Source: a virus. From it: a stretch of DNA of 25,589 nt. The translations under genes were made by a program, and so were the position numbers. The stretch's first letter is position 1, and every line of letters starts with the position of its first letter. The stretch lies in IMG/VR virus record IMGVR_UViG_3300006802_000497, positions 1 to 25,589 of that record; one strand, 5' to 3'. Under the pieces are notes generated by a model. It worked only from the letters and a program-made list of their open reading frames with translations, had not been told where the DNA came from and ran no database searches. Shown here piece by piece: positions 3,707-24,699 of this stretch.

Positions 3707-6193
3707 ATGACTGCCCGTAATTATGATTATATTTTAACTGTTGCAGATGCTACTGGTTTTATAAGTGGCAATGTTATTTTAGGTACTACTACCGGTACAG
3801 AAGCCTATATTGCTAATGTTGATTTAGCTAATAACTTATTAAAAGTAAAACTTAATAATGTCAGACAAGAGTTTTACGCCACAGAAACAATTACCTCTAA
3901 TTCTGCAGTTACTCGTATTGTATCAGATATAACATATTATGATACTACTACTTCTTATAATGTATTCTTTACAGGAATAACTGCTAATTCTAATACAGAA
4001 GTACACATAGCTGTTGGTAATGTTTTAATTAATACAGATGAGTACGTAGTAGATCTTTCTAAATCAAATCTTCTTTTAAATTTTAACGGGGCTGATGAAG
4101 CTACAACTACTACTGATGCTTCTCCTATAAAACAACAAACTATTACTTTTAATGGAGATGCTCAACTTGATACTGCGCAGAAAAAGTTTGGCACTGCTTC
4201 TTTATTACTTGACGGGACTGGAGATTATCTTTCTATACCTTCCAGCGATGATTTTAAGTTTCTAGAACGAGATAGCACTATTGAAGTGCAAATGAGACTG
4301 GCTTCTGGTACTACTGCTAACTCAACTATTTTTTCTAGAGTAGATGCTGGCACAGAAAACTACTATGCTCTTAAGTTTGTAGGTGCTAACTCTAATGTAG
4401 GCTTTGTATATATAGATCCTGCGGGTAATGGTGATGCAGCTACTAATATTGAAATTTATGGTGGTAATGTAAATGCAGAATCTTTCTATCATGTAGCTAT
4501 TGTCAATAATACTACTTCTAATACTCTTAGTCTTTACGTTGCAAATACTCGTGTTGCTTCTACTACTTATACAGGTAACGCAGAAAGTACTATTAGTGGG
4601 CCTATAGAGATAGGTAGATCAAGCACCTTATTCTCTTCTGGAGATCCTTTTAACGGTCATATTGACGATTTAAAATATTCTAGTAAGCAAGAATATGTTT
4701 CAACTGAAGACGATAGCGGTTTTTATACTTTTCCTGAACAAACAACGCAGGCTAACTCTTATGCAACAGTTACACTAACAAGAGAAAATCAAACAAACGT
4801 AGAACTAGCAGTTGCTACAAATGTTGCGGTGTTGGTACAAACAGCTAATATTCAATCTCAACCTTTTAATCCTGCTGTGTTTACGGGAGAAGAAACTACA
4901 GCTACTACAACTATTTCATCTTTAGTTCCCTCTCCTTTTATTAAAGAAAAGAATGCGTTTACACAGAATCCTATTGTTAGGCTTATTTCTATATATTATC
5001 CAGGAGAGTGGTATCCTCCTAATGAAAACGGTAATCCTACTGAGCAAGGTGCTGGATTAGCTTGGCCTTTAAACTTTCCTTTCCGTATAGCAGAAATTAA
5101 TGGGGATTATGTTTCAGATTTACAATATAATGTTACATATGACGGACAATCATATTCTCCTTATCCTTTAAATGTTTCTTCTATTGATACTAGTTCTGAT
5201 GGTAAAATTAGTGAAGTAACTCTTTCTGCTTTTAATATTGATAATATTCTTTCTTCTCTTGTAGAAGATCCTTTTATATCAGGTAATAATTCTTCTAACT
5301 CTACCGTAGCTTTAGTTAATAATGAGCTTGTTCACGGAATTGATCCACGCACGGTAAATAAAAATCCTGCTGATGTAGGTTCTGTGGGAGATGAAGCTTT
5401 TGACACATTAACAAGAGCAAGAGCTAACGGTTTATCGTATTCTGCAGATATAGTAAATTATTACGGAAAAGCAAATGCATCTTTTGATAAAAATCAAACA
5501 ACATTAGTTAATGGAAGTTGGACGGAGCTTAAACAAGATTCCAGAGATTTACTAGGAGGCGTAGTAGAAATTAAGACTACTTTTATGAACTTTTTAGATC
5601 ATTGGCCAGAGTATAGTAGTGTTAGAACTATTACAGCAAATGTAGTTGAAGTTATTAATGCTATGCCTTATCGAGTAGGAGATAATGTAAAATCTTCTGC
5701 GGGAGATACAGAGGCTACTATTCAATCTATTGAGGAAAATAGATTTTTATTCTTAAGTAATCCGCTATCTTCTTCTACTGCATTTGGTGATTCAGTTTTT
5801 ATTGTTAATGTTGATGCAGATGTTGAGTCTTATGTAGAAGATATTTTTAAAATTAATGAGTTAGAATCTTTAAATATTACTACCGCTACTTTTGGTTTAG
5901 TTTCGTGGTTGCAGTATTTTAAAATTGTAGTGCCAAAAAGAAAATACTATAAAAATACTTGTCAATGGATTTATAAAGGTGAAGAATGTCAATATCCTGG
6001 ACCAGGAGAATTACCTATTCCAGGAACTACATCTTTAAAAAGTAATGCTAATCCTATCGGTGCAGACAACGAGACAGCTGCTTCTGCAATCGGAGATATA
6101 TGTTCAAAAAGTTTAGAAGCTTGCACGATTAGAAATAATCAAATTCATTTCGGCGGATTCCCTGCTACAGGTAGAACAATTCCGAGGGCATAG
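3707..6193 (+). CDS. gpL-like tail tip protein with LamG insertion and four-Cys Fe-S motif
   Basis: 828 residues. The N-terminal ~115 contain a small beta module (GNVILGTTTGTEAYIANVD) and an adhesin-type motif. Residues 122-331 form a LamG domain homologous to the one in the preceding gene. The rest matches lambda gpL: YDGQSYSPYPLNVSS in the body, and a C-terminal cysteine module NTCQWIYKGEECQYPGPG followed by ICSKSLEACTIRNN and FGGFP. The cysteines are C752, C761, C799 and C806. Lambda gpL has the same arrangement and is reported to bind a [4Fe-4S] cluster. Another small beta module (around residues 650-700, GDNVKSSAGDTEATIQSIEE) interrupts the gpL core. Lambda gpL is about 230 residues, so two thirds here is added material. 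Role: closing the tail tube at the tip and joining M to J. ATG directly follows the previous TAA. The next gene, a radical SAM enzyme, also uses Fe-S chemistry. Confidence 0.82.
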   Translation: MTARNYDYILTVADATGFISGNVILGTTTGTEAYIANVDLANNLLKVKLNNVRQEFYATETITSNSAVTRIVSDITYYDTTTSYNVFFTGITANSNTEVHIAVGNVLINTDEYVVDLSKSNLLLNFNGADEATTTTDASPIKQQTITFNGDAQLDTAQKKFGTASLLLDGTGDYLSIPSSDDFKFLERDSTIEVQMRLASGTTANSTIFSRVDAGTENYYALKFVGANSNVGFVYIDPAGNGDAATNIEIYGGNVNAESFYHVAIVNNTTSNTLSLYVANTRVASTTYTGNAESTISGPIEIGRSSTLFSSGDPFNGHIDDLKYSSKQEYVSTEDDSGFYTFPEQTTQANSYATVTLTRENQTNVELAVATNVAVLVQTANIQSQPFNPAVFTGEETTATTTISSLVPSPFIKEKNAFTQNPIVRLISIYYPGEWYPPNENGNPTEQGAGLAWPLNFPFRIAEINGDYVSDLQYNVTYDGQSYSPYPLNVSSIDTSSDGKISEVTLSAFNIDNILSSLVEDPFISGNNSSNSTVALVNNELVHGIDPRTVNKNPADVGSVGDEAFDTLTRARANGLSYSADIVNYYGKANASFDKNQTTLVNGSWTELKQDSRDLLGGVVEIKTTFMNFLDHWPEYSSVRTITANVVEVINAMPYRVGDNVKSSAGDTEATIQSIEENRFLFLSNPLSSSTAFGDSVFIVNVDADVESYVEDIFKINELESLNITTATFGLVSWLQYFKIVVPKRKYYKNTCQWIYKGEECQYPGPGELPIPGTTSLKSNANPIGADNETAASAIGDICSKSLEACTIRNNQIHFGGFPATGRTIPRA
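4070..4699 (+). repeat. LamG domain copy B (in gpL-like gene)
   Basis: Second copy of the LamG module, paired with 2579-3196. It begins with LLLNFNG and ends near KQEYV. It carries a short insertion (PAGNGDAATN) between GFVYID and IEIYGGN that copy A lacks, and is otherwise collinear with A. Confidence 0.82.
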
Positions 6194-7371
6194 TGATTAA
6201 AGGTTGTATATTACCGTGGATGCATTTATACGGCGATGTAAGCGGAAAATATCGTTTATGTTGTCATACAGATAATAAACCTGAATCTATTATGGCAACA
6301 TATAAAGATGATATTTCTACAATTTTTAATAATGATAAATATAAAAGTGCTAGAAAACAATTCTTATCTAATAAATACCCAAAAGAGTGTAAAAAAGCTT
6401 GTTATGCTATTGAAGAATTAGGAGGGGAATCTAATAGGCAACAAGTAAACAAACGTTTTGGTAGGTTTGCTAATCTACAAAAACATACTAAAAGTGATGG
6501 TTCCATAGTAAATCATCCTATTTATTTAGATATAAGATTTGGAAATAAATGTAACTTTAAATGTAGAATCTGCGGTCCCCATTCCTCTTCTTCTTGGTTT
6601 AAAGATTCTTCTAAAGTAACTAACTTTAAAAACTATCCCGCTCAGTTAGAAGATTATTATACAGACTCTCCTGAGTTTTGGGCTTATTTAGATAAAATTA
6701 AACATTCTGTTAAATACTTTTATTTTGCAGGGGGTGAGCCTCTTATAATGGATGGACATTATAAGCTTTTGCAATGGTTCATTGATAATAATAAAACCGA
6801 TGTTGAATTAACTTATAATACAAATTTGAGTACTCTCAAATATAAAAATTATGATGTTTTTGAATTATGGAGCCATTTTGATAAAGTAAGTTTGTGGCCC
6901 AGCGTAGATGGCTATAAACAACATTCTGAGTATGGAAGAACTAACTTTAATTGGGACACTTTTGAGACTAACTTACTAAAAACTAAAAAATATGTAAATA
7001 CTTTAAGTTGTACTACTTCAATATATAGTATTTTGACAACACCTGAATTGATAGCCCATATGAAAACTTTAAATATTGCGACTTATTTAAGTATTTTAGA
7101 TTCCCCTACTTATTTTGATATGCGATTGTTACCAGATAGTATAAAAGATAAAATAAATAAAAAATTTGATATTTTAAAAAGAAAAATACCATTAAATACT
7201 AGTGAATTAGAAACTATTGATAAAAATTTAAGCTATCTAAATAAAGATATTGGTAATAGAGATATTTTACTTAAAGAGTTTAAAAAATATAATACACAAG
7301 TAGACTCACTTAACAATACTTCTTTCGTAAAAACCTACCCGGAATTAGCAGAATGGTACGAGAAAATATAA
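6193..7371 (+). CDS. Radical SAM protein with N-terminal five-cysteine (twitch-like) module
   Basis: 392 residues starting at GTG 6193, which overlaps the gpL TAG by one base, with GAGGG upstream. The radical SAM core has the canonical CX3CX2C (C120, C124, C127 in NKCNFKCRICG) that binds [4Fe-4S] and SAM, plus FAGGEPL (GGEP at 180-183). Before the core lies CILPWMH...RLCCH...CKKAC (C5, C23, C24, C66, C70), the pattern I associate with twitch/SPASM-type auxiliary Fe-S modules, here N-terminal. Such enzymes usually modify peptides or proteins by radical chemistry, but the substrate cannot be read from sequence. It sits inside the tail operon between gpL-like and NlpC/P60 genes, and its 3' end overlaps the next gene by 19 bases, so it is co-translated with tail-tip proteins. 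The C-terminal ~90 residues are Lys-rich and unrecognised. Family call is strong; substrate unknown. Confidence 0.88.
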   Translation: MIKGCILPWMHLYGDVSGKYRLCCHTDNKPESIMATYKDDISTIFNNDKYKSARKQFLSNKYPKECKKACYAIEELGGESNRQQVNKRFGRFANLQKHTKSDGSIVNHPIYLDIRFGNKCNFKCRICGPHSSSSWFKDSSKVTNFKNYPAQLEDYYTDSPEFWAYLDKIKHSVKYFYFAGGEPLIMDGHYKLLQWFIDNNKTDVELTYNTNLSTLKYKNYDVFELWSHFDKVSLWPSVDGYKQHSEYGRTNFNWDTFETNLLKTKKYVNTLSCTTSIYSILTTPELIAHMKTLNIATYLSILDSPTYFDMRLLPDSIKDKINKKFDILKRKIPLNTSELETIDKNLSYLNKDIGNRDILLKEFKKYNTQVDSLNNTSFVKTYPELAEWYEKI

Positions 7372-8181: not shown

Positions 8182-8531
8182 AACAAGAATTAGGAAAACA
8201 CTCACTTAGAGATTATCCTAGAGAAGCGTGTGGTTTAATTTTAAAAGACTTTAGTTATGTTCCATGCTTAAATTTAAGTAATGAACCTACTTTAAGTTTT
8301 ATTTTAGACCCTGGTGCCTTAATTCAGTATGATGAACAGATTTGGGGAATTTTTCACTCACATCCAGGCGATGATAATCCGATTCCAAGTAAAGAAGATA
8401 AAATTGGGGCTGCTTTCCAAGAGTATAAATTTTTGGTTGGTTTCGGCGAGAAATTTTTTATATACTGGTATGATAATAAGGTAAATGCTTTAAAATTTGA
8501 TCGGTTTGAGGAAAAACATCTTGAAGGTTAA
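8160..8531 (+). CDS. JAMM/MPN metallopeptidase (gpK N-terminal-like)
   Basis: 123 residues, a complete single JAMM domain. Glu22 lies in REACGLIL, and the zinc motif HSHPGDDNPIPSKED supplies His66, His68, Ser77 and Asp80, fitting the JAMM consensus E...HxHPX(n)SxxD. In lambda the N-terminal half of gpK carries this domain; the bacterial and phage members are zinc-dependent peptidases of the Mov34/MPN/PAD-1 family, and in tails the domain acts at the tip during assembly. The start at 8160 has AGGAA upstream at good spacing and overlaps the NlpC/P60 gene. The 3' end overlaps the first gpI copy by 11 bases. Together with the preceding NlpC/P60 gene it reconstitutes a split gpK. Confidence 0.88.
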   Translation: MDKYAELKQELGKHSLRDYPREACGLILKDFSYVPCLNLSNEPTLSFILDPGALIQYDEQIWGIFHSHPGDDNPIPSKEDKIGAAFQEYKFLVGFGEKFFIYWYDNKVNALKFDRFEEKHLEG

Positions 8532-9273
8532 TGTAAAATTTCATTCTGCCTATAAAAAATATTTTGAACAAGATAGTTATGAAGTTGACATAACTACCTA
8601 TTCAGATATTATGCTATATCTTAAAGGAGTGCATCCACGCTTTGCTAATTATCTTCGTAGAATTGAAATAGGTGAAATAGAAGAGTGTGTAGGCTTAGTA
8701 GATCAAAAATTTAATTGTATTACTTCTGACATACAAAATGTAAAACGTCCTAAACACGGAGAAACTATTTATATTACCCCTATTATTGCTGGAGGTGGTG
8801 GAAAAACAGGAATGATTATTGCGATGGTGGCAATAATCGCAATTTCTTTTATGATTCCAAATCCTTTTGCATTAGCTCCGGGTTTTGTAGGCCCTCCCAC
8901 AGCAGTTCAAGCTGCCGCTAGTTTAGGCGGGGCAGCCTTAGCAGCAATTGGAGGGATGTCGGCACTGACTATAAGTCTCGGTATGATGGCATTAAATATG
9001 TTAATATCTGCTTTTACCTCAAAACCTAAAAATCCTGTTTCTGGTTCTCCAGATTCAGCGGCAAGAACAGAAAATAACATGTTCGGAGCACTGCGAAACG
9101 CAACAGAGGCGGGTGCTCCTATACCTTTACACTATGGAATGACACGAGTATCTGGGCAATTTGTAAGCGGTTATTTACATACAACACAACACGGAAAAGG
9201 TAATGATCCTTCCGTTCAATCTATATTTCAAGCTAATCAAACTCCAAATGCTATTTTAGATGAGGCGGCTTAG
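8521..9273 (+). CDS. gpI-like tail assembly protein, copy 1
   Basis: I place the start at TTG 8521, which gives MKVNVKFHSAYKKYF, lining up with MQIELRIHSSYKPYF of copy 2, and has a GAGG site about nine bases upstream. A TTG at 8497 would add eight residues with no support. The result is 250 residues. An N-terminal ubiquitin-like beta domain of ~85 residues leads to a Gly/Ala-rich hydrophobic stretch (IIAGGGGKTGMIIAMVAI and onward) and a conserved tail (AARTENNMFGALRNATEAG, YGMTRVSGQFVSGYL). The same plan, including the hydrophobic middle and the short 'vlYG..rvgs.vvs' end, is seen in lambda gpI, which assists tail tip assembly. Ends 9273 with TAG directly abutting the next ATG. Confidence 0.78.
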   Translation: MKVNVKFHSAYKKYFEQDSYEVDITTYSDIMLYLKGVHPRFANYLRRIEIGEIEECVGLVDQKFNCITSDIQNVKRPKHGETIYITPIIAGGGGKTGMIIAMVAIIAISFMIPNPFALAPGFVGPPTAVQAAASLGGAALAAIGGMSALTISLGMMALNMLISAFTSKPKNPVSGSPDSAARTENNMFGALRNATEAGAPIPLHYGMTRVSGQFVSGYLHTTQHGKGNDPSVQSIFQANQTPNAILDEAA

Positions 9274-10053
9274 ATGCAAATAGAACTTCGTATACATTCA
9301 TCTTACAAACCTTATTTTGATCAAAGATCTTATAGCCTTGAAGTAATTGACTTTGAAGATATACATTTATATTTACGAAATTTGCATCCAAAATTTGATG
9401 CGTATTTAAAGGCTGTTCAACGAAAAGATACTGAAGAAGCAGTTTGTTTAGTAGACTCTACTTTTAGAACGTTAGACTATAACACTAAACAAATGAAAAA
9501 AATAAAAGATGGCGATGTATATTATCTAGCTCCTATGATTGTAGGAGGAGGCGGCAAACGTGGTTTTATTGCTATTGCAGCTTTTGCTGTTTTAGCTTAT
9601 GCTACAGGAGGTTTTGGTTTGATGACTCCACCGCCGGGTGGCGAACTGGGAATGCTTGAATTAGATGCTGGTATCTCTGCTGCTACTGGGGGCGGTAATA
9701 TCTTTGGAAGTCTAGGAGCAGCCGTTTCGAATATGCCTACTTTTTTAAAATCTATTATTGGTAACTTAGCTATAAGCTTTATAACTTCGTTATTTACTAA
9801 AAAACCTAAGTCTCCTGTTGCGGCTACTCCCGACTCGGCGGCAAGAACAGAAAATAATATGTTTAATTCTTTACAAAACTCAACAGAGTCAGGAACACCT
9901 ATAGCACTAAATTATGGAATGACACGAGTAGCAGGGCAGTTTGTTAGTGGTTATCTTCACACCACTGCTCACGGTAAAGGTAATGATCCTGCGGTGCAAT
10001 CGTTGTTTCAAGCAAATCATACTCCAAATGCTATTTTAGATGAGGCAGCCTAA
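9274..10053 (+). CDS. gpI-like tail assembly protein, copy 2 (tandem duplicate)
   Basis: 259 residues with the same plan as copy 1: an N-terminal ~85-residue domain (MQIELRIHSSYKPYFDQRSY, YYLAPMIVGGGGKRG), a Gly- and Ala-rich hydrophobic middle unlike that of copy 1, and a nearly identical C-terminal region. By hand count 58 of the last 71 residues match copy 1, from AARTENN to the shared ending TPNAILDEAA. The 26 bases coding the last residues before the final alanines are identical. Conserved ends with a divergent middle suggest an old duplication with selection or gene conversion on the termini. The start immediately follows the TAG of copy 1; the stop overlaps the gpJ start (TAATG). Role as for gpI. 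Confidence 0.78.
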   Translation: MQIELRIHSSYKPYFDQRSYSLEVIDFEDIHLYLRNLHPKFDAYLKAVQRKDTEEAVCLVDSTFRTLDYNTKQMKKIKDGDVYYLAPMIVGGGGKRGFIAIAAFAVLAYATGGFGLMTPPPGGELGMLELDAGISAATGGGNIFGSLGAAVSNMPTFLKSIIGNLAISFITSLFTKKPKSPVAATPDSAARTENNMFNSLQNSTESGTPIALNYGMTRVAGQFVSGYLHTTAHGKGNDPAVQSLFQANHTPNAILDEAA

Positions 10054-13000
10054 TGAGCGTTATTAGACATTATAATTCATATAAAGGTAGACGAATTCCT
10101 TATATTGTAGGAGCTAAAGGTGGCTGTTTTCCTGCGGGAACTGCCATAACAATGGCAGATGGTAGTACTAAACCCATTGAAGATATTAAAAATTTAGATG
10201 TTGTGCTTGCCTTTAATAAAAACGGTGTTCTTAGCCCTGCCACGGTGAGTGAGACTTTTTATCACGAAAACGATGAGTTTATTACAATTAAACACTGGGC
10301 AGGAGAGTTTACTGTAACCCCTAATCATTGGATTTTAGCCGATTCAGGACTATTTTTAGAGGCAGGTCAGCTTACTACAAAAGATCAAGTAGTTACTAAA
10401 GATGGGCAAATTTCTCCTATTGAAAGTATTGAGCCTGCGGGTAGCGGTTCTAGTTATAATTTTACTGTAAGTAAAGCACATACTTATATTGCTAATGATG
10501 TACGCGTGCATAATAAAGGTGGGGGAAAAGGGGGAGGTACTACTCATACTCCTGTTGAAGCTGAAAATAGTTTATTCTCTACTGATATTTTATTTGTTAC
10601 TAATGCTGTTGGAGAAGGTCCTGTATATAGAATTAATCCTAACGGGCCTCAAGACATTGAAATTCAAGACGGCGGTATTGATGATTTAATTAATCTAGAC
10701 GGAGATGGACGAGAAAATACAGAGAAATTTAAAACTATTTCAAATACAGGAACCGTAACTCAATCACCTCTTCGAGTATTTGGAGAAGAAATTGTAACTC
10801 CCCAAAACTTTCAATCTCCTGTTAGATTGAAAAAGGGTAATGTTGCTGGAATACCAAAATCCTCAGTTGAGTTACAAGATACAAGTGCTGATGATTGGGA
10901 TGCTCTTCGCTTTTCTTTTACACTAAACTCTTTATTGACACAAGCCACTAACGGAGATATTAATGGACACTCTATTTCCTTGCGTATTCGTATATTTAAC
11001 AGAGCTGGAACAGAAACTATTGCTGATACAGGAGATGAGGATACAGTAACTGCTGGAAACGCTACTATTTCTGGAAAAACAAACACTCCATTTAAATTTA
11101 CTATTACTGTTTTGATTCCTGAAGAAAAAAGGTCTACTGATGGATATAAATTTACTGTAGAAAAAACTTCTGGTGACTCAGAAAAATCTACTATTTCCGA
11201 AGAAATTCAATTAAGTGGCTGGTTTGAAATTAAATATAAAAGACAAGCGTATCCAAGAACTGCTCATATTGGTTATGCTATTAAAGCACATTCTGAATAT
11301 ACAGGAGGCGTACCTAACTTTACTTCTCTAATAAAAGGATTGCTAGTAAAGGTTCCCTCAAACTATAATCAACCTATCTTAGAAACAGGAGAGATAGATT
11401 GGAGAGAATTAGAACTTCCAGAAACAGGTACAGCTGAAATTGACGGTGTTTCTGGAGTACAAATTGGCTATACTCAAAGAGGCTACAGATTACAACAATC
11501 AGGACTAACTGTTCAAACCAGTGCTAACCCTGTTATTTATCAAGGTGTGTGGGACGGAACTTTTATCTATGCTTGGTCTCAAAACCCTGTTTGGATTACT
11601 TATGATATATTAACTAATAAAACATATGGTTTAGGGATTGCAGAAGAAAATATTGATAAATTTAAATTTTATCAAGTTGCTCAATATTGCGATGCTTGTA
11701 ACGTAATTACAGGAGCTTTTGAGGGCATAGATTCTTTAGCAGACGGTACTTTTAGACATAAACCAAGAGGATTATTTACAGATAGTAGAGAAAATCAATT
11801 TGGTTTGTCATCTTTTATTAAGATTAAAGAAAGACGTTTTATTTGTGACTGTACTATCATTGATCAATCTCAAGCAATGGATACTATTAACCAAATAACA
11901 TCAATTTTTAGAGGAGCGTTAGTTTATTCTGGGGGTAAAATTACTCTTGCAGTTGATATGCCTAATGAAATTCCTGTAGCAGTATTTAATGAATCTAATA
12001 TTAAAGATGGCAGTTTTCAAATAAGTGGTATTAAAGAAAGTGATATTTTAACAGGCGTAGATGTATCGTATATTGACCCTACTAACCACTTTAAACGAGA
12101 AGTAGTTCGTATTGATACTACAGATAGAAATGATGGTATGCAAAAGTCAGAAATTGAAAATGTTGCGTCTCTTGATTTATTCGGGGTAACTCGTAGAAGT
12201 CAAGCTCTTAGATATGCCCAATATCATATTGCTGCTTCTAAATTTTTGCGTCGTCGAGCTCAGTGGACTACCTCAGCAGAAGCTTTATTGCTATCTCCTG
12301 GAGATGTTGTATCGGTCGCTCAAAGAAATATTGGTATTGCTTGGGGTTATGCCGGTAAAGTTGTTTCAAACTCAACTTTAGGTTCTGATACTGTGCAAGC
12401 GGGTAACGTAATACTTGAACATCTAACTACTCCTTCTTTGTCTGCTTCTGTATTTACTGCAAATACAAATCCGCTTATACTTCGAGTATTTCGCTCTGAC
12501 AGAGATAGAATTGAATTATTTTTATTATCTAATACCGATTACCAATTATTAGATACAGGCAATGTTACTTCTGGTTTTGATAGAGCAAGAGTTAATGTAA
12601 TTTCTAAATATAACTATATAACACAAGCTTTTGATAGTGGTATAGATTCTACTGGTTTTCAAGCTAATGATGTTCCAACTATAGGTGATTTATGGACTCT
12701 TGGTGAGATTGATGATCCTAATAATATTTATTCAGCAAAATCAGATAAACTATTTAAAATTACTTCTATTACTAGAAATGAGGATCACGAAGTTGTAGTT
12801 GACTCTATTGAATATGTGTCAAATATTTATGTAGATTCTGATACTTTTATTGACTATACTCCAACTGATTATATTGATACTACAAGTCCTCTTCGTCCAC
12901 CACCGGCTCCGCAATTTAAGCTACAGCCTCTAACTAGAAGGGAACAAGACGGTTCTTTAACCACAGACTTATTTATTGATGTCTCTACGGAAAGAACAGG

Positions 13001-16000
13001 ATACGGTCTTGCTTTTGCTACAGAGTTTGAGATTATGAGAACTGATGAATCTCAAACAATGCTATCAGGTCAACTTGATACAAATGTAAATGCTGCTACT
13101 TTTGGTACTTTGTCCTTTACTCCTTCTAATACTGCTGCTTTAGCTGATGCTACCGGCGTAGCCGTGTTGGTTGGAAAAAATGGATTTGATACTAATTTAG
13201 GAGAAATTAGATTACTATGTAACTCGGTAGCTGCTATAGATGACAGCTCTAGCATTAGATTTACTGTTGAAGGATTAAATGTTGCTTTTGATACTAATAT
13301 CGGTAAACATGTTTTACGAACTAATGATGGCTCTATTCCTTTAAAAGGAATAGATCAGCTATCATTCCCGATTATTGGTAAAACAGATACTCCTTTACTT
13401 ATACAAAATTTTGGAGGTCAATTAACTGAATACAGCGCTAATATAACTGCTTTTAATGAAACTGGTGACGATATAGATTTAGGAGATGCTTTAAGTATTG
13501 AAGTAGAAAATACAGAAAATTTAGGCATAAGATTAGTTGATTTGCTTCCTCCAGCTCCTTTTTATGTAACTATTAATCAACTTTTAGATTCTAGATATTT
13601 AGATACTACACCAGATATTTATGTAGCTGGCTCTGATATTACGTATATTAGGAATAATACTTTTGTATCAGGAGCAAGTACTCATGTAGAGCCTCTTGAA
13701 ATTACTCCTAGAGACAAAAATTTTATCACAGTATATGTAGATGGCATAAAGAAAACTGCTGGACAGTTTACTTTTAATAAAGATACTTCTCCTCCTAATA
13801 TAACTTATACTATTGAAGAAGGAGAAGAAACTATTAAAGTATTGATAGATCATTATACTGTTCCTGCTATTGAAATAGGGGATAATGTTCAAATTCTTTC
13901 AGATAACGTATTTTCTGTTGCTAACGTGTCTTATGACCCAGCAGACCCGTCATATAATGCTGCGCTAACTTCTAATAATATTTATTCTATCACATTATCT
14001 AAGCGTCCTCGGTCTAATGTAAGCGGATTTACTGCTATAAATATTTCTCCAAACCCTATTGGAGTAATTGCCAATGTAAATCAAAGTGCCGCTAATTTTA
14101 CTTTTGATTATAATAAAGCTATTTATCCTGGTAATTTTAACTTAGCTAATAACTATGTATATGATGTAGCTTATGGTGAGGGTTTTGAAAAAGTATTTTT
14201 AACAGAAAATAGAACTATAAGAAACTTATCTACAGGAACCACGATAGTTAGAGCAAGAAATAAAAATAGAGCAGGACGAGCCAGCCCTTATGTAACTAAA
14301 GCTCTTACAATAGAAAACCTTCTTATCCCAAAGGTTCAAAATGTTGTTATTACAGAATCCTTGTACAAAGAACAAGTTGGTGGTGTAGCTGTTAGAGCTA
14401 TTGTAGCCTTTGATCATTTACAAAACTCAGAAGTAACAGATTATGAAGTTTCTTATCGTATTACAGGAGAGTCTGCCGATCTAACTTCTTTTACTTCTGT
14501 AAAAGTTCCGGCAACAGCTGTCGATTCTGATGGAAAAGTTAGATATCTTATAAACAACATTGATAGAGGTGCTAGTTCACAGGTTAATACTTTAAATATT
14601 AGGATTACTCCACTAAACAAAGATATTAGAGGACAAACTACAACAGTAACACAAACTATTTTAGGTAAGACAGCTCCTCCACAAAACGTTATTAACTTTA
14701 CTGGAGGCCAGCTATCTGATCAGATAACTTTTTTCTGGTCTTATCCACGAACTAACGATGAGCTATCTGATTTAGATCTAAAAGAAGTAGTTATTAGGCG
14801 CATACCGGGAACAGCTACTATTAATTCTTCTAATTTTGTACTTGCTGACGCATATCATACAGAAGCTGCGGGAGGCGCTAGATTTACTGTTAATATTGAT
14901 ACTTTTGGTACTTTTACTTATTTAGTACGAACTCGTGATACTAGCGGTAACTTTAGTGAAAGCGTAACAGGACTTACATTAACAACAACTAGGCCTGTTA
15001 GAAATACTGTTATTGCTGCGTACAACGAAGACTCTCCTGGAACTACGTTTGCAGGAATTGTAAATACAAACTCCGCAGAGGAAAATTTTGCTTCTTTCTC
15101 TACCTCTAATAATGGTGGTATCAATAACTCTTCTGTTCCAAGTTCTGTAGTAGATAATGCAAATGGTTCTTCTTCTGGTTGGTCTGCTATTGCAGCTTCT
15201 CCTACAGATTTATTAGCTACAGGAGACGCTACTTACATTACACAAATTAGAGATTTAGGTTCTACTGTTACGGGTTCTTTATTTGTTGATATTGAAGGAA
15301 CACAGGCAGTACAAACAACTTATAATGACTATCATACAGTATTGTTTTCTGGTGTCACAGAAACAAATACTGGTCCAGCAGCGGATGTTCTTCAAGAAGA
15401 TAATTTTGGTGGTATTGGAACAGTCCTTGGATTTTCTAATTCAACTCTTACATTTAATTATAGTGGTGTTAATAAAACGTTAGTAGACACCACAACTACT
15501 GCTAATGTATATGCTATATGGAATCCCGGGCAGTATACTGGTAATGTTATTTCTATTTCTGCTATTACGCAAGCTTCTCCGGCTGTTGTTACTACAGTAG
15601 GATCTGAGCACGGTCTTGTAGATGGTGATAGAATTATCATTCACGATGTTACTGGTATGACAGAAATTAATGATAAAGAAGTATATGTAACTAGAGACAG
15701 TGCAACGGCAGTTTCTTTATTTACCGATTCTGCAAGAACTACTCCTTTAAACTCTACTGGATTTACAGCATATAGTAGTTCTGGTGTGCTTGACCAAGGT
15801 GATTATGCAAACGCAAACTCATATGCTTTGATTGCCAGTGTTATTAATGCTAATCATGTTGCGTTAGGAACTTCTTATCACGCAAATGGAGATGCTACTG
15901 GTACTAATGCTTTTGCTAATATTACTCAAGTAGCTTCTACTTATCAATTAGTTGATTTGTCACAGTTTTCAGATTTAGGGTCGTCAGCAACTTTTGAAGG

Positions 16001-16532
16001 TACTTTAGGCGTTGTCTCAACAACAGCATTCGTTAGGACTAGTACAGAAACACCAGAAAATTTATTCCAAGCAGACCCAACAGCCGCAGATCCTGCAGCG
16101 CTACAGGTTGTTCAGGCTAATTTTACGGGAGGAAGCTCTACTAATGATGGTTTCTTACCATATGAGACGGGAACTAAAGCTTTCCGATTCTTCCAAATAA
16201 AATTTGTTGTAAATAACAACGAGCCTAATCAATTTGACTTTACAATTGATAAATTACGATATACAATTGAAAAAGAAAAGCTAATATTTACAGAAAGTGT
16301 CGTTTTTGACGGAGTTGATAAGGTAGTTGATTTGTCTTCTGCTAATTTTGTGCAAGTGCCTGTAGTAAGTTTAGATGTTACTTCTAGCGCTAATGCTTTA
16401 GCGGCACCTATAGCAGTAACTACCGAATTAAGCGCAACTCAATTAAAATTTAATGTATTTTTTACAAGTAATGGGGTTGCCCATCCAGCAGATAGCACAG
16501 CAACTGTATCGGTGACAGCAACAGGAGTTTAA
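10053..16532 (+). CDS. gpJ-like central tail fibre / tail tip protein with embedded Hint (intein-like) domain
   Basis: 2159 residues, about twice lambda gpJ (1132). Order: residues 1-24, a short basic segment ending GAKGG; 25-154, a Hint domain (separate entry); 155-162, KGGGKGGG; then a clear gpJ match beginning HTPVEAENSLFSTDILF with NAVGEGPVY, and around 496-550 GVWDGTFIYAWSQNPVWITY and YQVAQYCDACN. The gpJ core runs to roughly residue 1000. Residues ~1425-1640 look like fibronectin-type repeats; ~1830-1915 (VVTTVGSEHGLVDGDRIIIH) resemble the FCCH-like beta module frequent in phage structural proteins; the C terminus is beta-rich and probably the receptor-facing part. gpJ forms the tip and contacts the host receptor. 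The start overlaps the gpI stop (TAATG). The extra length and modular C terminus suggest a host-range-determining adhesin. Confidence 0.87.
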   Translation: MSVIRHYNSYKGRRIPYIVGAKGGCFPAGTAITMADGSTKPIEDIKNLDVVLAFNKNGVLSPATVSETFYHENDEFITIKHWAGEFTVTPNHWILADSGLFLEAGQLTTKDQVVTKDGQISPIESIEPAGSGSSYNFTVSKAHTYIANDVRVHNKGGGKGGGTTHTPVEAENSLFSTDILFVTNAVGEGPVYRINPNGPQDIEIQDGGIDDLINLDGDGRENTEKFKTISNTGTVTQSPLRVFGEEIVTPQNFQSPVRLKKGNVAGIPKSSVELQDTSADDWDALRFSFTLNSLLTQATNGDINGHSISLRIRIFNRAGTETIADTGDEDTVTAGNATISGKTNTPFKFTITVLIPEEKRSTDGYKFTVEKTSGDSEKSTISEEIQLSGWFEIKYKRQAYPRTAHIGYAIKAHSEYTGGVPNFTSLIKGLLVKVPSNYNQPILETGEIDWRELELPETGTAEIDGVSGVQIGYTQRGYRLQQSGLTVQTSANPVIYQGVWDGTFIYAWSQNPVWITYDILTNKTYGLGIAEENIDKFKFYQVAQYCDACNVITGAFEGIDSLADGTFRHKPRGLFTDSRENQFGLSSFIKIKERRFICDCTIIDQSQAMDTINQITSIFRGALVYSGGKITLAVDMPNEIPVAVFNESNIKDGSFQISGIKESDILTGVDVSYIDPTNHFKREVVRIDTTDRNDGMQKSEIENVASLDLFGVTRRSQALRYAQYHIAASKFLRRRAQWTTSAEALLLSPGDVVSVAQRNIGIAWGYAGKVVSNSTLGSDTVQAGNVILEHLTTPSLSASVFTANTNPLILRVFRSDRDRIELFLLSNTDYQLLDTGNVTSGFDRARVNVISKYNYITQAFDSGIDSTGFQANDVPTIGDLWTLGEIDDPNNIYSAKSDKLFKITSITRNEDHEVVVDSIEYVSNIYVDSDTFIDYTPTDYIDTTSPLRPPPAPQFKLQPLTRREQDGSLTTDLFIDVSTERTGYGLAFATEFEIMRTDESQTMLSGQLDTNVNAATFGTLSFTPSNTAALADATGVAVLVGKNGFDTNLGEIRLLCNSVAAIDDSSSIRFTVEGLNVAFDTNIGKHVLRTNDGSIPLKGIDQLSFPIIGKTDTPLLIQNFGGQLTEYSANITAFNETGDDIDLGDALSIEVENTENLGIRLVDLLPPAPFYVTINQLLDSRYLDTTPDIYVAGSDITYIRNNTFVSGASTHVEPLEITPRDKNFITVYVDGIKKTAGQFTFNKDTSPPNITYTIEEGEETIKVLIDHYTVPAIEIGDNVQILSDNVFSVANVSYDPADPSYNAALTSNNIYSITLSKRPRSNVSGFTAINISPNPIGVIANVNQSAANFTFDYNKAIYPGNFNLANNYVYDVAYGEGFEKVFLTENRTIRNLSTGTTIVRARNKNRAGRASPYVTKALTIENLLIPKVQNVVITESLYKEQVGGVAVRAIVAFDHLQNSEVTDYEVSYRITGESADLTSFTSVKVPATAVDSDGKVRYLINNIDRGASSQVNTLNIRITPLNKDIRGQTTTVTQTILGKTAPPQNVINFTGGQLSDQITFFWSYPRTNDELSDLDLKEVVIRRIPGTATINSSNFVLADAYHTEAAGGARFTVNIDTFGTFTYLVRTRDTSGNFSESVTGLTLTTTRPVRNTVIAAYNEDSPGTTFAGIVNTNSAEENFASFSTSNNGGINNSSVPSSVVDNANGSSSGWSAIAASPTDLLATGDATYITQIRDLGSTVTGSLFVDIEGTQAVQTTYNDYHTVLFSGVTETNTGPAADVLQEDNFGGIGTVLGFSNSTLTFNYSGVNKTLVDTTTTANVYAIWNPGQYTGNVISISAITQASPAVVTTVGSEHGLVDGDRIIIHDVTGMTEINDKEVYVTRDSATAVSLFTDSARTTPLNSTGFTAYSSSGVLDQGDYANANSYALIASVINANHVALGTSYHANGDATGTNAFANITQVASTYQLVDLSQFSDLGSSATFEGTLGVVSTTAFVRTSTETPENLFQADPTAADPAALQVVQANFTGGSSTNDGFLPYETGTKAFRFFQIKFVVNNNEPNQFDFTIDKLRYTIEKEKLIFTESVVFDGVDKVVDLSSANFVQVPVVSLDVTSSANALAAPIAVTTELSATQLKFNVFFTSNGVAHPADSTATVSVTATGV
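10125..10514 (+). other. Hint domain (mini-intein / bacterial intein-like) inside gpJ-like protein
   Basis: 130 codons from Cys25 to Asn154 of the gpJ-like protein. Block A: CFPAGTAITMADGSTKPIED, beginning with the nucleophilic Cys. Block B: TVTPNHWIL, with TxxH (T89, H92). C-terminal blocks: AHTYIANDVRVHN, ending His153-Asn154. There is no room for a homing endonuclease. The residue after Asn154 is Lys155, not Cys, Ser or Thr, so the canonical splicing nucleophile is missing. Published A-type bacterial intein-like domains that lack this nucleophile can cleave and sometimes splice. The flanks are both Gly/Lys-rich (GAKGG before, KGGGKGGG after), so removal would rejoin a single Gly/Lys linker just ahead of the lambda-type gpJ start. 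Confidence 0.87.
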
Positions 16533-18196: not shown

Positions 18197-20101
18197 ATGG
18201 CATTAACAAGAATTACTACTTCAGTTGTTGACAGTGATGCGGTTACTACAGATAAGATAGCAGACGAAGCTGTTACTACAGATAAGATAGCTGCTGGGGC
18301 TGTAACAATAGATAAATTAGCAGCATCTGCTAACGTTACCATTGTTCACGTAGACTTAACATCTAATGTTAATTTAGTGCAAGATAATGTTGTACGAGTT
18401 GCTGCTAATTTATTAAGTAATACTTATACTTATGCTAATACAGAAATTGGTCTTCTTGGGAATAATGCTCCAGAAACACAGACTCTTAGTTTGGGTGACC
18501 CTGCTAATGTTATTGTTGGGACAACAAAACACAGTAGCGGAATATCTTTTGTTCGTATTAACAGTGCTGCAGGACAAGGAAAGTATAATTTAGATGTAAG
18601 TGGTAACGCCCGTATTCAAGAGGCTTTTATTAATACTGTTGCAATATCCAATGCAAACCCTTCTAGTACTGGATTTTATCTAGGAACTCCAGCTAACATC
18701 ATTTTAAGGGCATCTACTACACAAGACGTAACTGGTCGTTTACATATGGGTGTTCCTGATAGTATTTCTGGCCTCTCTCGTTATGCCGTAGATGTTAGAT
18801 CCAATGCAAATATTGGAGATACGTCAGTAACTGCTTTAGGCGTAGATAACGTAAGTCCAGCCTCTGGAACTATTTCTGTAGGTGTTCCTGCTAATGTGGT
18901 AATTCGCTATCACGCAGCGAGCGGAGCAGGCAATGTTATTATTGGAGATGCTACGGCTACTTCTGAATACAACTTAGATGTTCGTGGTAGTGCAAACACC
19001 TCAACAATCATAGTTGATTCTCTAACAGCATCTAGGGCATTAATTTCTGGAGCCTCCAAAGGCGTAGAGTCTTCTTCTGTTACCTCTACAGAGTTAGGTT
19101 ATGTTTCGGGAGTTACTTCTGCAATTCAAACTCAATTAGACAGCAAAGTTGGTCAAACAAATATTAATACCGTTCAGGATAATGTAGCAGCTGCCGAAGC
19201 TAATATAGCATCTGTCATAAACGGTTCTACCGCTTTTACCGGTGCTGTAACTATGAACGATGATTTAACTGTTCAAGGTAATCTTACTGTTGCTGGTAGT
19301 TTTGCTAATCTTGCAGTTCAAGATTCTTATACAGACGACCGTATGATAATGTTAGCAAACTCATTTACAGGATCTCCTTCTCTTGATGTAGGCTTACTAT
19401 TTAATAGAGGAAATCAGGGCAATGCTGCATTTTTCTATGATGAATCTGGGCGCAGATTTAGACTATCAGACACGCAAGACCCTTCATCTAATACAGCTTT
19501 ATCACCTGTAACAGACTCAAATCTTCAGTTAGGTAATTTATTTGTTGAATCTATTACTTTAGATGGAACAGCAATTAGTGCAACAGGCGTAGAATTAAAT
19601 TACACAGACGGAGTAATTTCCGCAATTCAAACTCAATTAGATGGCAAAGACACTAGAGCAAACGTTGATGCGTTTGGGACGTATGCCAACACTAATTTAG
19701 ATACTAAAGCTAATGTTAGCGCTACTTACTTTTTAGCGTTAGCTAACGACTTTGTAACGTATACAAGACTTAATGCTAATATTAATACTACTACAGATAA
19801 TGTTACTGCTGTTGAAACTCGTCTTAATGCTAATATAGATATCGTTCAAGATAATGTTGCTACTCTAGCAGGAACTACTCTAAGTCCTGGTTCTAATACA
19901 GTTACTTCTGTTGCAGGAGCAAACGCTTATGGCATTGGAGCAGCGGTAACTGCGATTGCAAGAACTCGTGTTTATGTATCAGGCGTTTCTCAATTACCTA
20001 CCACCGATTATGTAGTACCATCTTCTGGTGTTATGCAATTAACTGACCCTTCTGCGGATATTCCTGCTGATTTACCTATTTTAATTCAATATTGGAACTA
20101 A
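18197..20101 (+). CDS. Tail fibre protein with N-terminal 10-residue repeats
   Basis: 634 residues. Residues 14-43 are three repeats of the type DAVTTDKIAD, common in marine phage fibres. The middle has repeated beta-rich units (LGTPANIILRASTTQD, VGVPANVVIRYHAASG) and two copies of SAIQTQLDSK / SAIQTQLDGK, a string I associate with trimeric phage fibre shafts (with LGYVSGVT and LNYTDGV before each). The last ~50 residues carry a beta motif (TRVYVSGVSQLPTTDYVV, PILIQYW) that resembles modules in the gpM-like, gpL-like and gpJ-like proteins. AAGGAA precedes the ATG. Probable role: long side fibre or receptor binding. The stop shares one base with the next ATG, so the second radical SAM enzyme is translationally coupled to it. 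Confidence 0.8.
   Translation: MALTRITTSVVDSDAVTTDKIADEAVTTDKIAAGAVTIDKLAASANVTIVHVDLTSNVNLVQDNVVRVAANLLSNTYTYANTEIGLLGNNAPETQTLSLGDPANVIVGTTKHSSGISFVRINSAAGQGKYNLDVSGNARIQEAFINTVAISNANPSSTGFYLGTPANIILRASTTQDVTGRLHMGVPDSISGLSRYAVDVRSNANIGDTSVTALGVDNVSPASGTISVGVPANVVIRYHAASGAGNVIIGDATATSEYNLDVRGSANTSTIIVDSLTASRALISGASKGVESSSVTSTELGYVSGVTSAIQTQLDSKVGQTNINTVQDNVAAAEANIASVINGSTAFTGAVTMNDDLTVQGNLTVAGSFANLAVQDSYTDDRMIMLANSFTGSPSLDVGLLFNRGNQGNAAFFYDESGRRFRLSDTQDPSSNTALSPVTDSNLQLGNLFVESITLDGTAISATGVELNYTDGVISAIQTQLDGKDTRANVDAFGTYANTNLDTKANVSATYFLALANDFVTYTRLNANINTTTDNVTAVETRLNANIDIVQDNVATLAGTTLSPGSNTVTSVAGANAYGIGAAVTAIARTRVYVSGVSQLPTTDYVVPSSGVMQLTDPSADIPADLPILIQYWN
18236..18325 (+). repeat. Three tandem 30-bp repeats in fibre gene
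   Basis: Three consecutive in-frame 30-bp units (18236-18265, 18266-18295, 18296-18325) encode DAVTTDKIAD, EAVTTDKIAA and GAVTIDKLAA. The first two share a 20-base identical core (18242-18261 and 18272-18291); the third is diverged. They are coding repeats of a fibre shaft or anchor, not regulatory DNA. Confidence 0.88.
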
Positions 20102-21084
20102 TGAAAATAAGACAACTTACTACAGAACTTACTTTTCGCTGTAATGCTAAATGTCCAGCTTGTCATAGAATAAAGCCTTTACGTATAGATTTAAATGATA
20201 AACAGTATACTATTTCTTTAGAACGTTTTAAAACTCTGTTTAATCCTGAGCTTTTAGAAAACTTAGAGTGGCTTGTGTTAAATGGTAATTTTGGCGACTC
20301 AATTATGAATCGCGAATTTAGAGAAATTATAAGTTATGTAAAAGAGTATAATGTAAAACTTAATATTCATACTAACGGCGGAATACACGATACAGATTAT
20401 TGGAAAGATGTAGGTAATATTTTAGATCGCTTTGATATTATCAACTTTGACTTAGATGGCTTATCAGATACACACCATATTTATCGTATAAATACACATT
20501 TTGAAACAGTTTTTAGTAATGCAAAAGCTGTTATTTCTACTAATAGACCGCAAGTTCATTGGAAATATATAGTTTTTGAGTATAATAAGCACCAAGTAGA
20601 AGAGGCAAAAGCTTTAGCAATTAAAGAAGGCTTTCATACCTTTTCTACAGTTAAAACTTCTAGAGAATTTGGACGACCTACTTCAGGTAAATTTATTCAT
20701 ACAAAAAAGACTAATGAATATGAAAAAGCTGAGAAAAAAATTCACTGTGTCTGGAAAGACTGGAACAAGTGGTATATATCTCCTGAAGGGTTAGTATTTA
20801 GGTGTTGTTGGACAGGCGGGCATTACTATGATAATGATAATTCTCGTTTTTATTACCCTTCCGACTTTGAACAAAAATTTAATGGATTTAGTATTCCCAT
20901 CCAAAAAATTATCAGTTATAATTATTGGAATAAGTTAGAATTATATCTTCAAGGATATGAGAGAGCTTTTTCGCTTTGTAAATCTCAATGTGGAAAACTT
21001 CTTTCCAGTCGGGAAAAGATTGAAGAAAATCTTAATACAGGTGAAAAAACGTATTTTGATGCTTTTAATCAGTTAGGAAATTAA
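20101..21084 (+). CDS. Radical SAM protein with C-terminal five-cysteine (twitch-like) module
   Basis: I use ATG 20101, which overlaps the fibre stop by one base and gives MKIRQLTTELTFRCNAKCPA, 327 residues; a TTG at 20092 is possible but unsupported. The SAM-binding CX3CX2C is C14, C18, C21. In place of the usual GGEP there is LNGNFGDS (60-67), a variant I associate with phage radical SAM proteins. The C-terminal part has C216, C235, C236, C293 and C297, the same C-x17/18-CC-...-CxxxC pattern that the other radical SAM protein (6193-7371) has at its N terminus. Likely an auxiliary Fe-S module, hence peptide or protein modification. Its placement directly behind a fibre gene, coupled by overlap, suggests but does not prove that a tail protein is the substrate. 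Confidence 0.88.
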   Translation: MKIRQLTTELTFRCNAKCPACHRIKPLRIDLNDKQYTISLERFKTLFNPELLENLEWLVLNGNFGDSIMNREFREIISYVKEYNVKLNIHTNGGIHDTDYWKDVGNILDRFDIINFDLDGLSDTHHIYRINTHFETVFSNAKAVISTNRPQVHWKYIVFEYNKHQVEEAKALAIKEGFHTFSTVKTSREFGRPTSGKFIHTKKTNEYEKAEKKIHCVWKDWNKWYISPEGLVFRCCWTGGHYYDNDNSRFYYPSDFEQKFNGFSIPIQKIISYNYWNKLELYLQGYERAFSLCKSQCGKLLSSREKIEENLNTGEKTYFDAFNQLGN

Positions 21085-23068: not shown

Positions 23069-23603
23069 CTAAGTTTAGTAACCAAGTATACTTGTAAGGC
23101 GCACACACTAGTGGTTGCGCCTTACTTGTTTTTAACACTTTATTAAATATTTCTTCTCCCTCTACATCTACACTTATAAAAACAAAATCTTCGTCTGATA
23201 ACCAAGAATAATCATACGTTGCAGCATCACCATGTACAATCATAATATTGTCTTTAGCAGGAGAATTTTTAATAAGGTGCTGGCTTATTTTAACTCGTGA
23301 TTCTATTATTTCTATACCAACTTGCCTGATATGTGGATATTGTTTATGTACATCAAACATGCTATAAGGATACAGCCCACTACCTACAAGCACTAAATTT
23401 TTACACTGATTAAACTTGTATCTCTGTTTTTTGTCTACTAGAGTTTTAATTATCCAAGCATTATGTTCTGCTTCTGTATAAGGATTTTTCTTTTGTTCTG
23501 TGTAAAGTTTTAATAATCGTAATTCATCTAAAGATACAAGGTTTTTCCATAGATCTTTTTTATTACTTATTGTATTTAAGTTAACTTTTTTCTCTGATAA
23601 CAT
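23049..23603 (-). CDS. Small class I SAM-dependent enzyme, nicotianamine-synthase-like
   Basis: I choose the ATG at 23603 (MLSEKKVNLN, 184 residues) because TAAGGA lies eight bases upstream; the ATG at 23624 has no ribosome binding site. The SAM-binding glycine loop is NLVLVGSGLYPYSMFDVHKQ, followed by GIEIIESRVKISQHLIK and IMIVHGDAATYDY, a class I methyltransferase fold. The 'GSGxxPxS' loop is typical of nicotianamine synthase-like proteins, which transfer the aminocarboxypropyl group of SAM rather than a methyl group. Those enzymes are about 270-330 residues, so this is a compact version. Substrate unknown. It overlaps the upstream glycosyltransferase gene by 23 bases and is the last gene of the minus-strand group. 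Its 3' coding end contains the plus-strand terminator. Confidence 0.6.
   Translation of the reverse strand: MLSEKKVNLNTISNKKDLWKNLVSLDELRLLKLYTEQKKNPYTEAEHNAWIIKTLVDKKQRYKFNQCKNLVLVGSGLYPYSMFDVHKQYPHIRQVGIEIIESRVKISQHLIKNSPAKDNIMIVHGDAATYDYSWLSDEDFVFISVDVEGEEIFNKVLKTSKAQPLVCAPYKYTWLLNLANYRYF
23094..23133 (+). terminator. Rho-independent terminator of the plus-strand operon
   Basis: A perfect 10-bp stem, GTAAGGCGCA (23094-23103) and TGCGCCTTAC (23116-23125), a 12-base loop, and then TTGTTTTT (23126-23133). The stem is much more GC-rich than the surroundings. No T run follows it on the minus strand, so it should work only for plus-strand transcripts, after the gene(s) ending at 22970/23068. 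It lies entirely within the coding region of the convergent minus-strand gene. Confidence 0.82.
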
Positions 23604-24699
23604 TAGAAGATTCCTTAACCCCATTTAAATTTATAGAGTGTTTTTCTGGAAAACTATCGTTTTCTAATATCTCTTTTATTAAATGTGGTAGTTTAAATAA
23701 TTCAGATTTAGTACATACTTTAAAAACATTTAGAGGCTCTAAAGTAAAACAACGAATAAATTGTTCCATTTTTTGACCATCTGTTCTAGGTATAAGAATA
23801 GCGGGTATTTGAGCTTTTAATACTTCCATAGTAGAGTTATAACCACCGTATGTAATATATAACGCACAAGATTGTACATATTTATAAAAATCTTCTATAA
23901 AAGGTACAAGGGTTACATTTCCTTTTGTTTTACTTTGTGTTTCTTTTAAGTATCTATTAGCAATTGGCATAATAAAGTTATAATTAGGAAATTTAGGTGC
24001 TATTTTAGATACTTCTTTAAATAAAAGAACCCCCTCTTCTTTATTTAATCCTGTGCTAACATATATATTATTATTGAGTCTTTTATGTTTTTTAATATCA
24101 GGATTACATACATATCCTGTATATATAATTTTATCTTTTAAATCTTCTATAATCTGCTGAGAATTATTCATTCTAACACGATCTGCCAGTAAAGGCAAGT
24201 AATTCTCATCTCCGTGTATTAACACAACATCTGCATAGTATTTACATACTAAATTTTGTGTATGTGCAACCCAATCTTGTAATGATTCTTGATGAGGCTC
24301 ATCCCAAGGAAAATCTCTTGCACTAATTATAATTTTTATTCCACGTTTTTTTGCTTCTTCAAAAAAATAAAAGTATTCGTGAGAAAACTGATGTCTACAA
24401 AATGGGAATCCTTCGCATACAATAAGACTAACGTCGTTTGTATCAAGTATCTTATTCCATTCTTTTTTTCTTAACGTAACAAGCTCTTTAGACATCATAA
24501 AATTAAAAATGTTTTTAATGTCAGCTGGAATGTATGCTTTTAAAAAACTATTTCTTTCACAACCATCGTAAGAAATTGGTGGGTCAAAAAGTTGGTCTAC
24601 AACTAAAACACGATGTGTTTTTGCTACTTCTTCTGCAATAAACTTCGTTCTCATACAGTGACCTAAGCCACGATAGTATTGTGTTAGAAAAATTATCAT
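23581..24699 (-). CDS. GT-B fold glycosyltransferase (MurG/COG4671-like)
   Basis: 372 residues. The N-terminal domain opens with FLTQYYRGLGHCMRTKFIAE, the Gly-loop 'GGxGH' region of GT-B enzymes, here RGLGH. The C-terminal domain has VPFIEDFYKYVQSCALYITY then GGYNSTMEVLKAQIPAILIP R...EQFIR, the donor nucleotide-sugar binding pattern of MurG-like (GT28-type) transferases. It therefore transfers a sugar from a nucleotide donor; donor and acceptor cannot be read. The start overlaps the ThyX stop in an ATGA, and the end overlaps the nicotianamine-synthase-like gene. Candidates for the acceptor are modified phage DNA, a virion protein or host surface. Cytosolic; no signal peptide or membrane segment seen. 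Confidence 0.78.
   Translation of the reverse strand: MIIFLTQYYRGLGHCMRTKFIAEEVAKTHRVLVVDQLFDPPISYDGCERNSFLKAYIPADIKNIFNFMMSKELVTLRKKEWNKILDTNDVSLIVCEGFPFCRHQFSHEYFYFFEEAKKRGIKIIISARDFPWDEPHQESLQDWVAHTQNLVCKYYADVVLIHGDENYLPLLADRVRMNNSQQIIEDLKDKIIYTGYVCNPDIKKHKRLNNNIYVSTGLNKEEGVLLFKEVSKIAPKFPNYNFIMPIANRYLKETQSKTKGNVTLVPFIEDFYKYVQSCALYITYGGYNSTMEVLKAQIPAILIPRTDGQKMEQFIRCFTLEPLNVFKVCTKSELFKLPHLIKEILENDSFPEKHSINLNGVKESSNVIREKS

Follow-up and report, generated by a model that had tools for sequence, protein, structure and literature searches.

A bacterial-intein-like Hint domain in the N-terminal Gly/Lys linker of a lambda-type phage tail-tip protein, and its possible self-removal

The stretch of DNA analysed here (the window, 25,589 nucleotides) comes from the IMG/VR viral record IMGVR_UViG_3300006802_000497. 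It carries a lambda-type tail module, encoding a DUF2460-like protein, Phage_tail_L, a radical SAM protein, NlpC, JAB, two gpI-like proteins and gpJ, the lambda-type central tail fibre or tail-tip hub. NlpC and JAB are separate genes, which correspond to both halves of lambda gpK. The assignment to the lambda gpJ family rests on homology in the hub region (phrog_31, 6e-109) and on the gene order L, K, I, J (Phage_tail_L, NlpC, JAB and phrog_32 lie upstream). Close to the N terminus of this gpJ lies a Hint domain of the bacterial-intein-like (BIL) type: from N to C terminus, the protein consists of a 24-residue leader, a 130-residue Hint domain, the sequence KGGGKGGG and the gpJ core. The corresponding features are as follows.

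10053..16532, + strand: gpJ precursor, 2159 amino acids (phrog_31; lambda_TipJ model starting at residue 158)
10053..10124, + strand: leader or N-extein, residues 1–24, MSVIRHYNSYKGRRIPYIVGAKGG
10125..10514, + strand: Hint domain (BIL-type mini-intein), residues 25–154, without endonuclease domain
10125..10127, + strand: Cys25, Cys1 of the Hint domain, candidate nucleophile of the N–S acyl shift
10317..10328, + strand: block B, T-P-N-H, residues 89–92
10455..10481, + strand: block F, YNFTVSKAH, residues 135–143, by sequence comparison with Asn in place of the Asp of many inteins
10509..10514, + strand: block G, His153-Asn154, candidate site of Asn cyclisation
10515..10517, + strand: Lys155, the +1 residue, in place of Cys, Ser or Thr
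10515..10538, + strand: Gly/Lys linker KGGGKGGG, first part of the C-extein
10575..16529, + strand: gpJ core, beginning FSTDILF (alignment A2; phrog_31)

That residues 25–154 form a Hint domain was confirmed by profile searches and by structure prediction. A first-pass annotation of the window had placed such a domain here, with Cys25, T89-P-N-H92 and His153-Asn154 followed by Lys155, and these coordinates and catalytic residues proved exact. It had suggested a hidden Markov model search against Hint and BIL families, in which gpJ scored 31.3 bits with Pfam Hint PF01079 (cut-off 29.7) and 28.6 with PT-HINT PF07591 (cut-off 27.7). The NCBIfam model intein_Nterm began exactly at residue 25 and intein_Cterm finished exactly at residue 154, both exceeding their curated cut-offs. 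In the Protein Data Bank, the top sequence match for the Hint family profile was the BIL domain of Clostridium thermocellum (2lwy, E=1.8e-17). The AlphaFold2 (AF2) model of the domain had a predicted local confidence (pLDDT) of about 85–96, and its top Foldseek matches were all Hint or intein structures, with the DnaB intein, BUBL1 BIL2 and 2lwy at template modelling (TM) scores of 0.8–0.86 on the target. The annotation had made its claim depend on a fold of this kind, and the predicted one does match inteins and BIL domains. The leader and the linker were modelled with low confidence, as flexible segments would be. Just after the Hint domain, positions 2–36 of the lambda_TipJ model (NCBIfam) align to gpJ residues 158–192, in agreement with the earlier view that this segment is the start of lambda gpJ.

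The domain is not unique to this phage, since it occurs at the same site of gpJ in hundreds of IMG/VR contigs. A scan of IMG/VR with lambda-type carriers gave at least 574 confirmed relatives; the lambda-type set used below comprises the 62 unique carriers among the matches listed. Two other sets consist of 32 Hint representatives, 28 of them from the window's gpJ family, and of 20 carriers. Cys1, T-x-N-H, His71, Arg151 and Asn154 are found in all 32 representatives, as is Gly at position −1; in the lambda-type set, Cys1 and His-Asn are present in 62/62 and Gly at −1 in 60/62, and the third set has Cys1 in 20/20. The terminal Asn is invariant in all sets. No Cys, Ser or Thr occupies the +1 position in any of the three sets, where only Lys (27 of 32), Gly (5 of 32 and 18 of 62) and Ala (44 of 62 and 20/20) were observed. 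At the block F position Asn was found, or Thr in six K-family representatives, and no Asp was seen. Loss of the catalytic Cys among relatives would have counted against the first-pass annotation; the residue is invariant, and the sequence, the predicted fold and the large size of the family bear out a BIL-type Hint domain lacking the +1 nucleophile. Among the carriers examined there was no degenerate copy. One clade (L071, L073, L078, L083, L101 and relatives) has a Hint domain of 135 amino acids with a penultimate Ser in place of His, and keeps all other catalytic residues.

A scan of bacterial genomes with the Hint domain returned one Hint-bearing gpJ (L179), in a contig titled Oxalobacter sp., presumably a prophage. 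A second was not found at E≤1e-20 in 369 genomes of the class of L179 (its own genome included), and a bacterial genome scan with the gpJ core gave no match. Searches of cultured phages by tblastn with three queries (the window, L142 and L207) detected no Hint-bearing gpJ. The cultured-phage Hint matches to the window, as far as examined or annotated, were intein helicases (with +1 Cys in a Proteus phage, by annotation in Vibrio phages) and a PT-HINT-like protein of a Ruminococcus phage; an apparent partial match in Escherichia phage PHB10 turned out to be a gpJ without Hint. No mention of a Hint domain in gpJ was found in the open-access literature searched; the subscription literature lay outside the search, and an earlier description is possible.

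In the IMG/VR relatives of gpJ that lack the Hint domain, the Gly/Lys linker is continuous, a feature that the first-pass annotation had proposed to look for. The N terminus of the Hint-less L019 is uninterrupted, VPDIRGAKGGKGGGGSEPREDPNSLFSTDILF, where the window has IPYIVGAKGG, the Hint domain, then KGGGKGGG..NSLFSTDILF. The linker at the empty site is GAKGG-KGGGG in L019 and L041 and GAKGGKGGGG in L065, and the KGGGKGGG that follows the Hint domain in the window matches the KGGGG of these three and of L066. Within the window's gpJ family, the leader motif P-x-[IVL]-x-G is present in 28/28 Hint-bearing and in 28/28 Hint-less representatives. Together with the uninterrupted N termini, this indicates that the leader belongs to gpJ and that the Hint domain lies within its Gly/Lys linker. 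Since Hint-less gpJs also have it, the leader is, judged from these alignments, an ordinary part of gpJ and not a special tag made by the Hint domain. It had been described as a 24-residue basic leader; it is indeed basic in this phage, but basicity is not its defining trait, the conserved part being P-x-[IVL]-x-G with a run of Gly and Lys after it. Lys in the linker was considered as a trait specific to carriers and dropped, because Hint-less relatives also have it (20/28 in the window's family, nearly all in the lambda-type set).

Compared with known systems, the domain is most readily placed with type A BILs. Beyond its sequence match, 2lwy is alike in fold (TM 0.86 on the target), in Cys1, in the block B TxxH, in the C-terminal His-Asn, in the lack of a +1 nucleophile and in having Asn rather than Asp at block F, with YNF..V in both. 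Known BILs reside in hypervariable parts of non-conserved bacterial proteins, whereas the gpJ Hint domain sits at one fixed near-N-terminal site of a phage tail-tip protein that is conserved and has orthologues without the insertion; the departure concerns a trait that describes known BILs (PMC7765530) and is not mechanistic. Membership of the BIL type is thus supported by each sequence and predicted-structure feature tested, the usual genomic setting excepted. Class 1 mini-inteins (gp41-1, Ssp DnaB, Mtu RecA) share with it the Hint fold, a clean in-frame insertion into the host protein and empty alleles at the same site. Their +1 residue, however, is Cys, Ser or Thr and their block F residue usually Asp, where the gpJ domain has Lys, Gly or Ala and Asn or Thr, respectively; moreover, its host is a structural tail protein and its site a flexible Gly linker. 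PT-HINT domains of polymorphic toxins, whose Pfam cut-off is exceeded, differ in that here the gpJ core is the C-extein and no toxin domain follows the Hint domain.

The explanation that we favour, while giving it even chances of being right or wrong, is that an active BIL-type mini-intein removes itself from the gpJ precursor, and that leader and body are rejoined in at least part of the molecules. Cys25 would take the Gly24-Cys25 bond as a thioester by an N–S acyl shift, cyclisation of Asn154 would set the +1 alpha-amine free, and this amine would attack the thioester, so that the leader (P-x-I-x-G..GG) would be joined to the Gly/Lys linker and the core. The branched intermediate of normal inteins could not form, because there is no +1 nucleophile. 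Removal would take place in cis, and in the window's family it would yield the GAKGG-KGGG linker, which in Hint-less sister phages is already encoded as such. Ten carrier records each contained a single Hint domain and no second one, hence no partner domain was seen. Catalytic activity, reaction at both junctions and rejoining are inferred. The closest solved relative, 2lwy, which we take to be the BIL domain of the Aranko 2013 paper, fits by its title and organism the kind of BIL reported to ligate in trans. Ligation in trans without nucleophilic side chains was reported by Aranko 2013, as relayed by PMC4031507 and PMC7664689. For type A BILs, the proposal generally accepted is that the freed alpha-amine attacks the thioester (aminolysis), cleavage being the dominant outcome (PMC4031507). 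A mechanism using the epsilon-amine of a +1 Lys was considered as a general rule; it was abandoned, since the +1 residue of most lambda-type carriers is Ala or Gly.

The strongest competitor, a tentative one but nearly as likely as partial rejoining, is cleavage without rejoining. Asn cyclisation would free gpJ from the +1 residue onwards, the leader would be hydrolysed off, to be lost or to work as a free peptide, and the Hint domain would serve as an N-terminal maturation protease of gpJ. In the BILs characterised so far cleavage prevails (PMC7664689, PMC4031507); the alignment with lambda gpJ begins directly past the Hint domain, at the second residue of lambda gpJ; and the C-extein of lambda-type carriers already has IAGAGGGGGK, as in their Hint-less sisters. 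Three further observations weigh against rejoining. The motif I-x-G-x-GGG stands on both sides of the Hint domain in lambda-type relatives, so that C-terminal cleavage would by itself produce an N terminus resembling the one in Hint-less sisters; lambda gpJ works with an N terminus equivalent to the cleaved form; and in several pairs the Hint domain has changed more slowly than the short leader. On the other side, Cys1, Gly at −1 and the leader motif are conserved as much as the C-terminal His-Asn, and the leader is kept in every Hint-less relative of the window's family. The invariant residues serve both the first step (the Gly-Cys thioester) and the last (Asn cyclisation). Since Cys1 would be needed only for the N-terminal reaction, and since upkeep of the leader would be unnecessary if it were simply lost, their conservation argues for rejoining, as does the identity of the joined product with the Hint-less allele in the window's family.

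Transfer of the leader to another amine has also to be weighed, and here the gene directly upstream of gpJ is of interest.

9274..10053, + strand: gpI-like protein (phrog_32), with a predicted N-terminal ubiquitin-like domain (AF2/Foldseek) ending LAPMIVGGGGKRG

The top AF2/Foldseek matches of its N-terminal domain, predicted to be ubiquitin-like, include SAMP1, MoaD and ubiquitin (best E about 0.007). The domain ends in P-M-I-V-GGGGKRG, and the gpJ leader, P-x-I-x-GAKGG, has the same motif. P-x-[IVLM]-x-G was present in 114 of the 115 proteins identified upstream of gpJ, a few of these matches sitting elsewhere in the protein, and a Gly-rich run usually comes next. A ubiquitin-type tail before a BIL is the BUBL arrangement, and the likeness of the gpI and gpJ motifs is suggestive only. 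In Tetrahymena, BUBL1 BIL2 (6y75, 6tmm), which is within the top three fold matches, is likewise preceded by a chain that ends in Gly-Gly in the manner of ubiquitin; its acceptor is a Lys side-chain amine, with which it reportedly forms an isopeptide bond, and conjugation of ubl4 to further substrates has been reported as well (PMC8616854). By analogy, a Hint-activated gpJ leader might bypass the alpha-amine of its own C-extein and be moved to a different amine, for instance that of a Lys side chain in the Gly/Lys linker or in another protein of the tail, but we regard this as unlikely. The acceptor in the gpJ system is only putative, most Hint-less relatives have Lys in the linker too, and the +1 Ala or Gly of most of the wider family means that Lys at +1 is not required. 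Moreover, the gpJ N-extein is not a whole ubiquitin-like domain, only 10–25 residues resembling the gpI ubiquitin-like tail. It is similarly doubtful that the leader is a ubiquitin-tail mimic, activated by the Hint domain as a thioester for ATP-free conjugation to a tail-tip amine, as a viral counterpart of ciliate BUBL.

The JAB peptidase gene adjoins the gpI/gpJ region (window 8497–10124). The two gpI-like proteins are encoded in tandem (8497–9273 and 9274–10053) and are 49% identical (alignment A9); at each of the comparison loci L008 and L016 there is a single one.

In lambda, the N-terminal region of gpJ is part of the tip's HDII-insertion domains, the lumen is plugged by gpI, and the junction has been described as a focus of added N-terminal domains (PMC10721106, PMC11101478, PMC13243795). 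Processing of the Hint domain would plausibly occur during tail assembly. Alternatively, the domain might escape processing and decorate the tail tip, in a structural role or facing the host, which would suit the description of the gpL/gpI–gpJ region as a hot spot where siphophage hubs acquire extra N-terminal domains (PMC13243795). This is very improbable, as the chemical residues are invariant in every carrier examined, save the penultimate His in one clade, and no copy is degenerate.

The Hint domain is under strong purifying selection, with ratios of nonsynonymous to synonymous substitution rates (dN/dS) of 0.01–0.21 over 14 pairs, comparable to the gpJ core. In the window's gpJ family, the divergence of the domain is correlated with that of the core (Mantel r=0.85, 0 of 2000 permutations), and entire deep clades carry it. 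On the lambda-type tree of 96 representatives, presence and absence are patchy, with at least 14 changes, 7 of them forced by well-supported branches. The gpJ cores of carriers L326 and L334 and of non-carrier L317 are 98.8% identical, and the L326/L317 DNA alignment contains a single clean in-frame block that starts at the Cys codon within a GGN repeat. In the lambda-type group, recombination between the I-x-G-x-GGG repeats could delete the Hint domain precisely. A decaying selfish mini-intein that has lost its +1 residue and endonuclease would account for the patchiness and for a precise indel in near-identical DNA, but is hardly credible in view of the strong purifying selection, the invariant active site and the deep clades all carrying the domain.

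In one pair (L005/L007), DNA identity is 0.89–0.96 over a segment that starts about 70 bases ahead of the Hint Cys codon and extends to 580 bases beyond it, and about 0.75–0.85 around this segment; for this pair only, the raised identity over the domain and its flanks may reflect gene conversion. In the Hint-less Stenotrophomonas phage CUB19 (L178), HNH homing endonuclease annotations (906–1454) lie exactly between genes I and J, adjoining the site where relatives have the Hint domain.

What sets the gpJ Hint domain apart from known BILs is that it occupies a single conserved site of a viral structural protein that is itself conserved, that it does so in very many genomes, and that empty alleles exist. 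The family addresses the natural role of BILs and the question of true splicing without a +1 nucleophile: it is large, has one homologous site and a virion form that can be sequenced, and includes near-identical Hint-free sisters as natural controls. Efficient rejoining, if true, would amount to physiological splicing by aminolysis across many phages; cleavage only, if true, would be a tail-tip maturation step without description in the literature searched. Under either outcome, the gpJ N termini predicted from Hint-bearing genomes are probably wrong as translated.

Elsewhere in the window, two radical SAM proteins are encoded (6193–7371 and 20092–21084). The first belongs to NCBIfam N_Twi_rSAM (8e-107) and lies between the gpL and NlpC genes, a position that it keeps in the relatives L008 and L016. 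On the minus strand (23581–25367), downstream of the tail module, a ThyX (Thy1) thymidylate synthase and a glycosyltransferase with a GT28 C-terminal domain are encoded.
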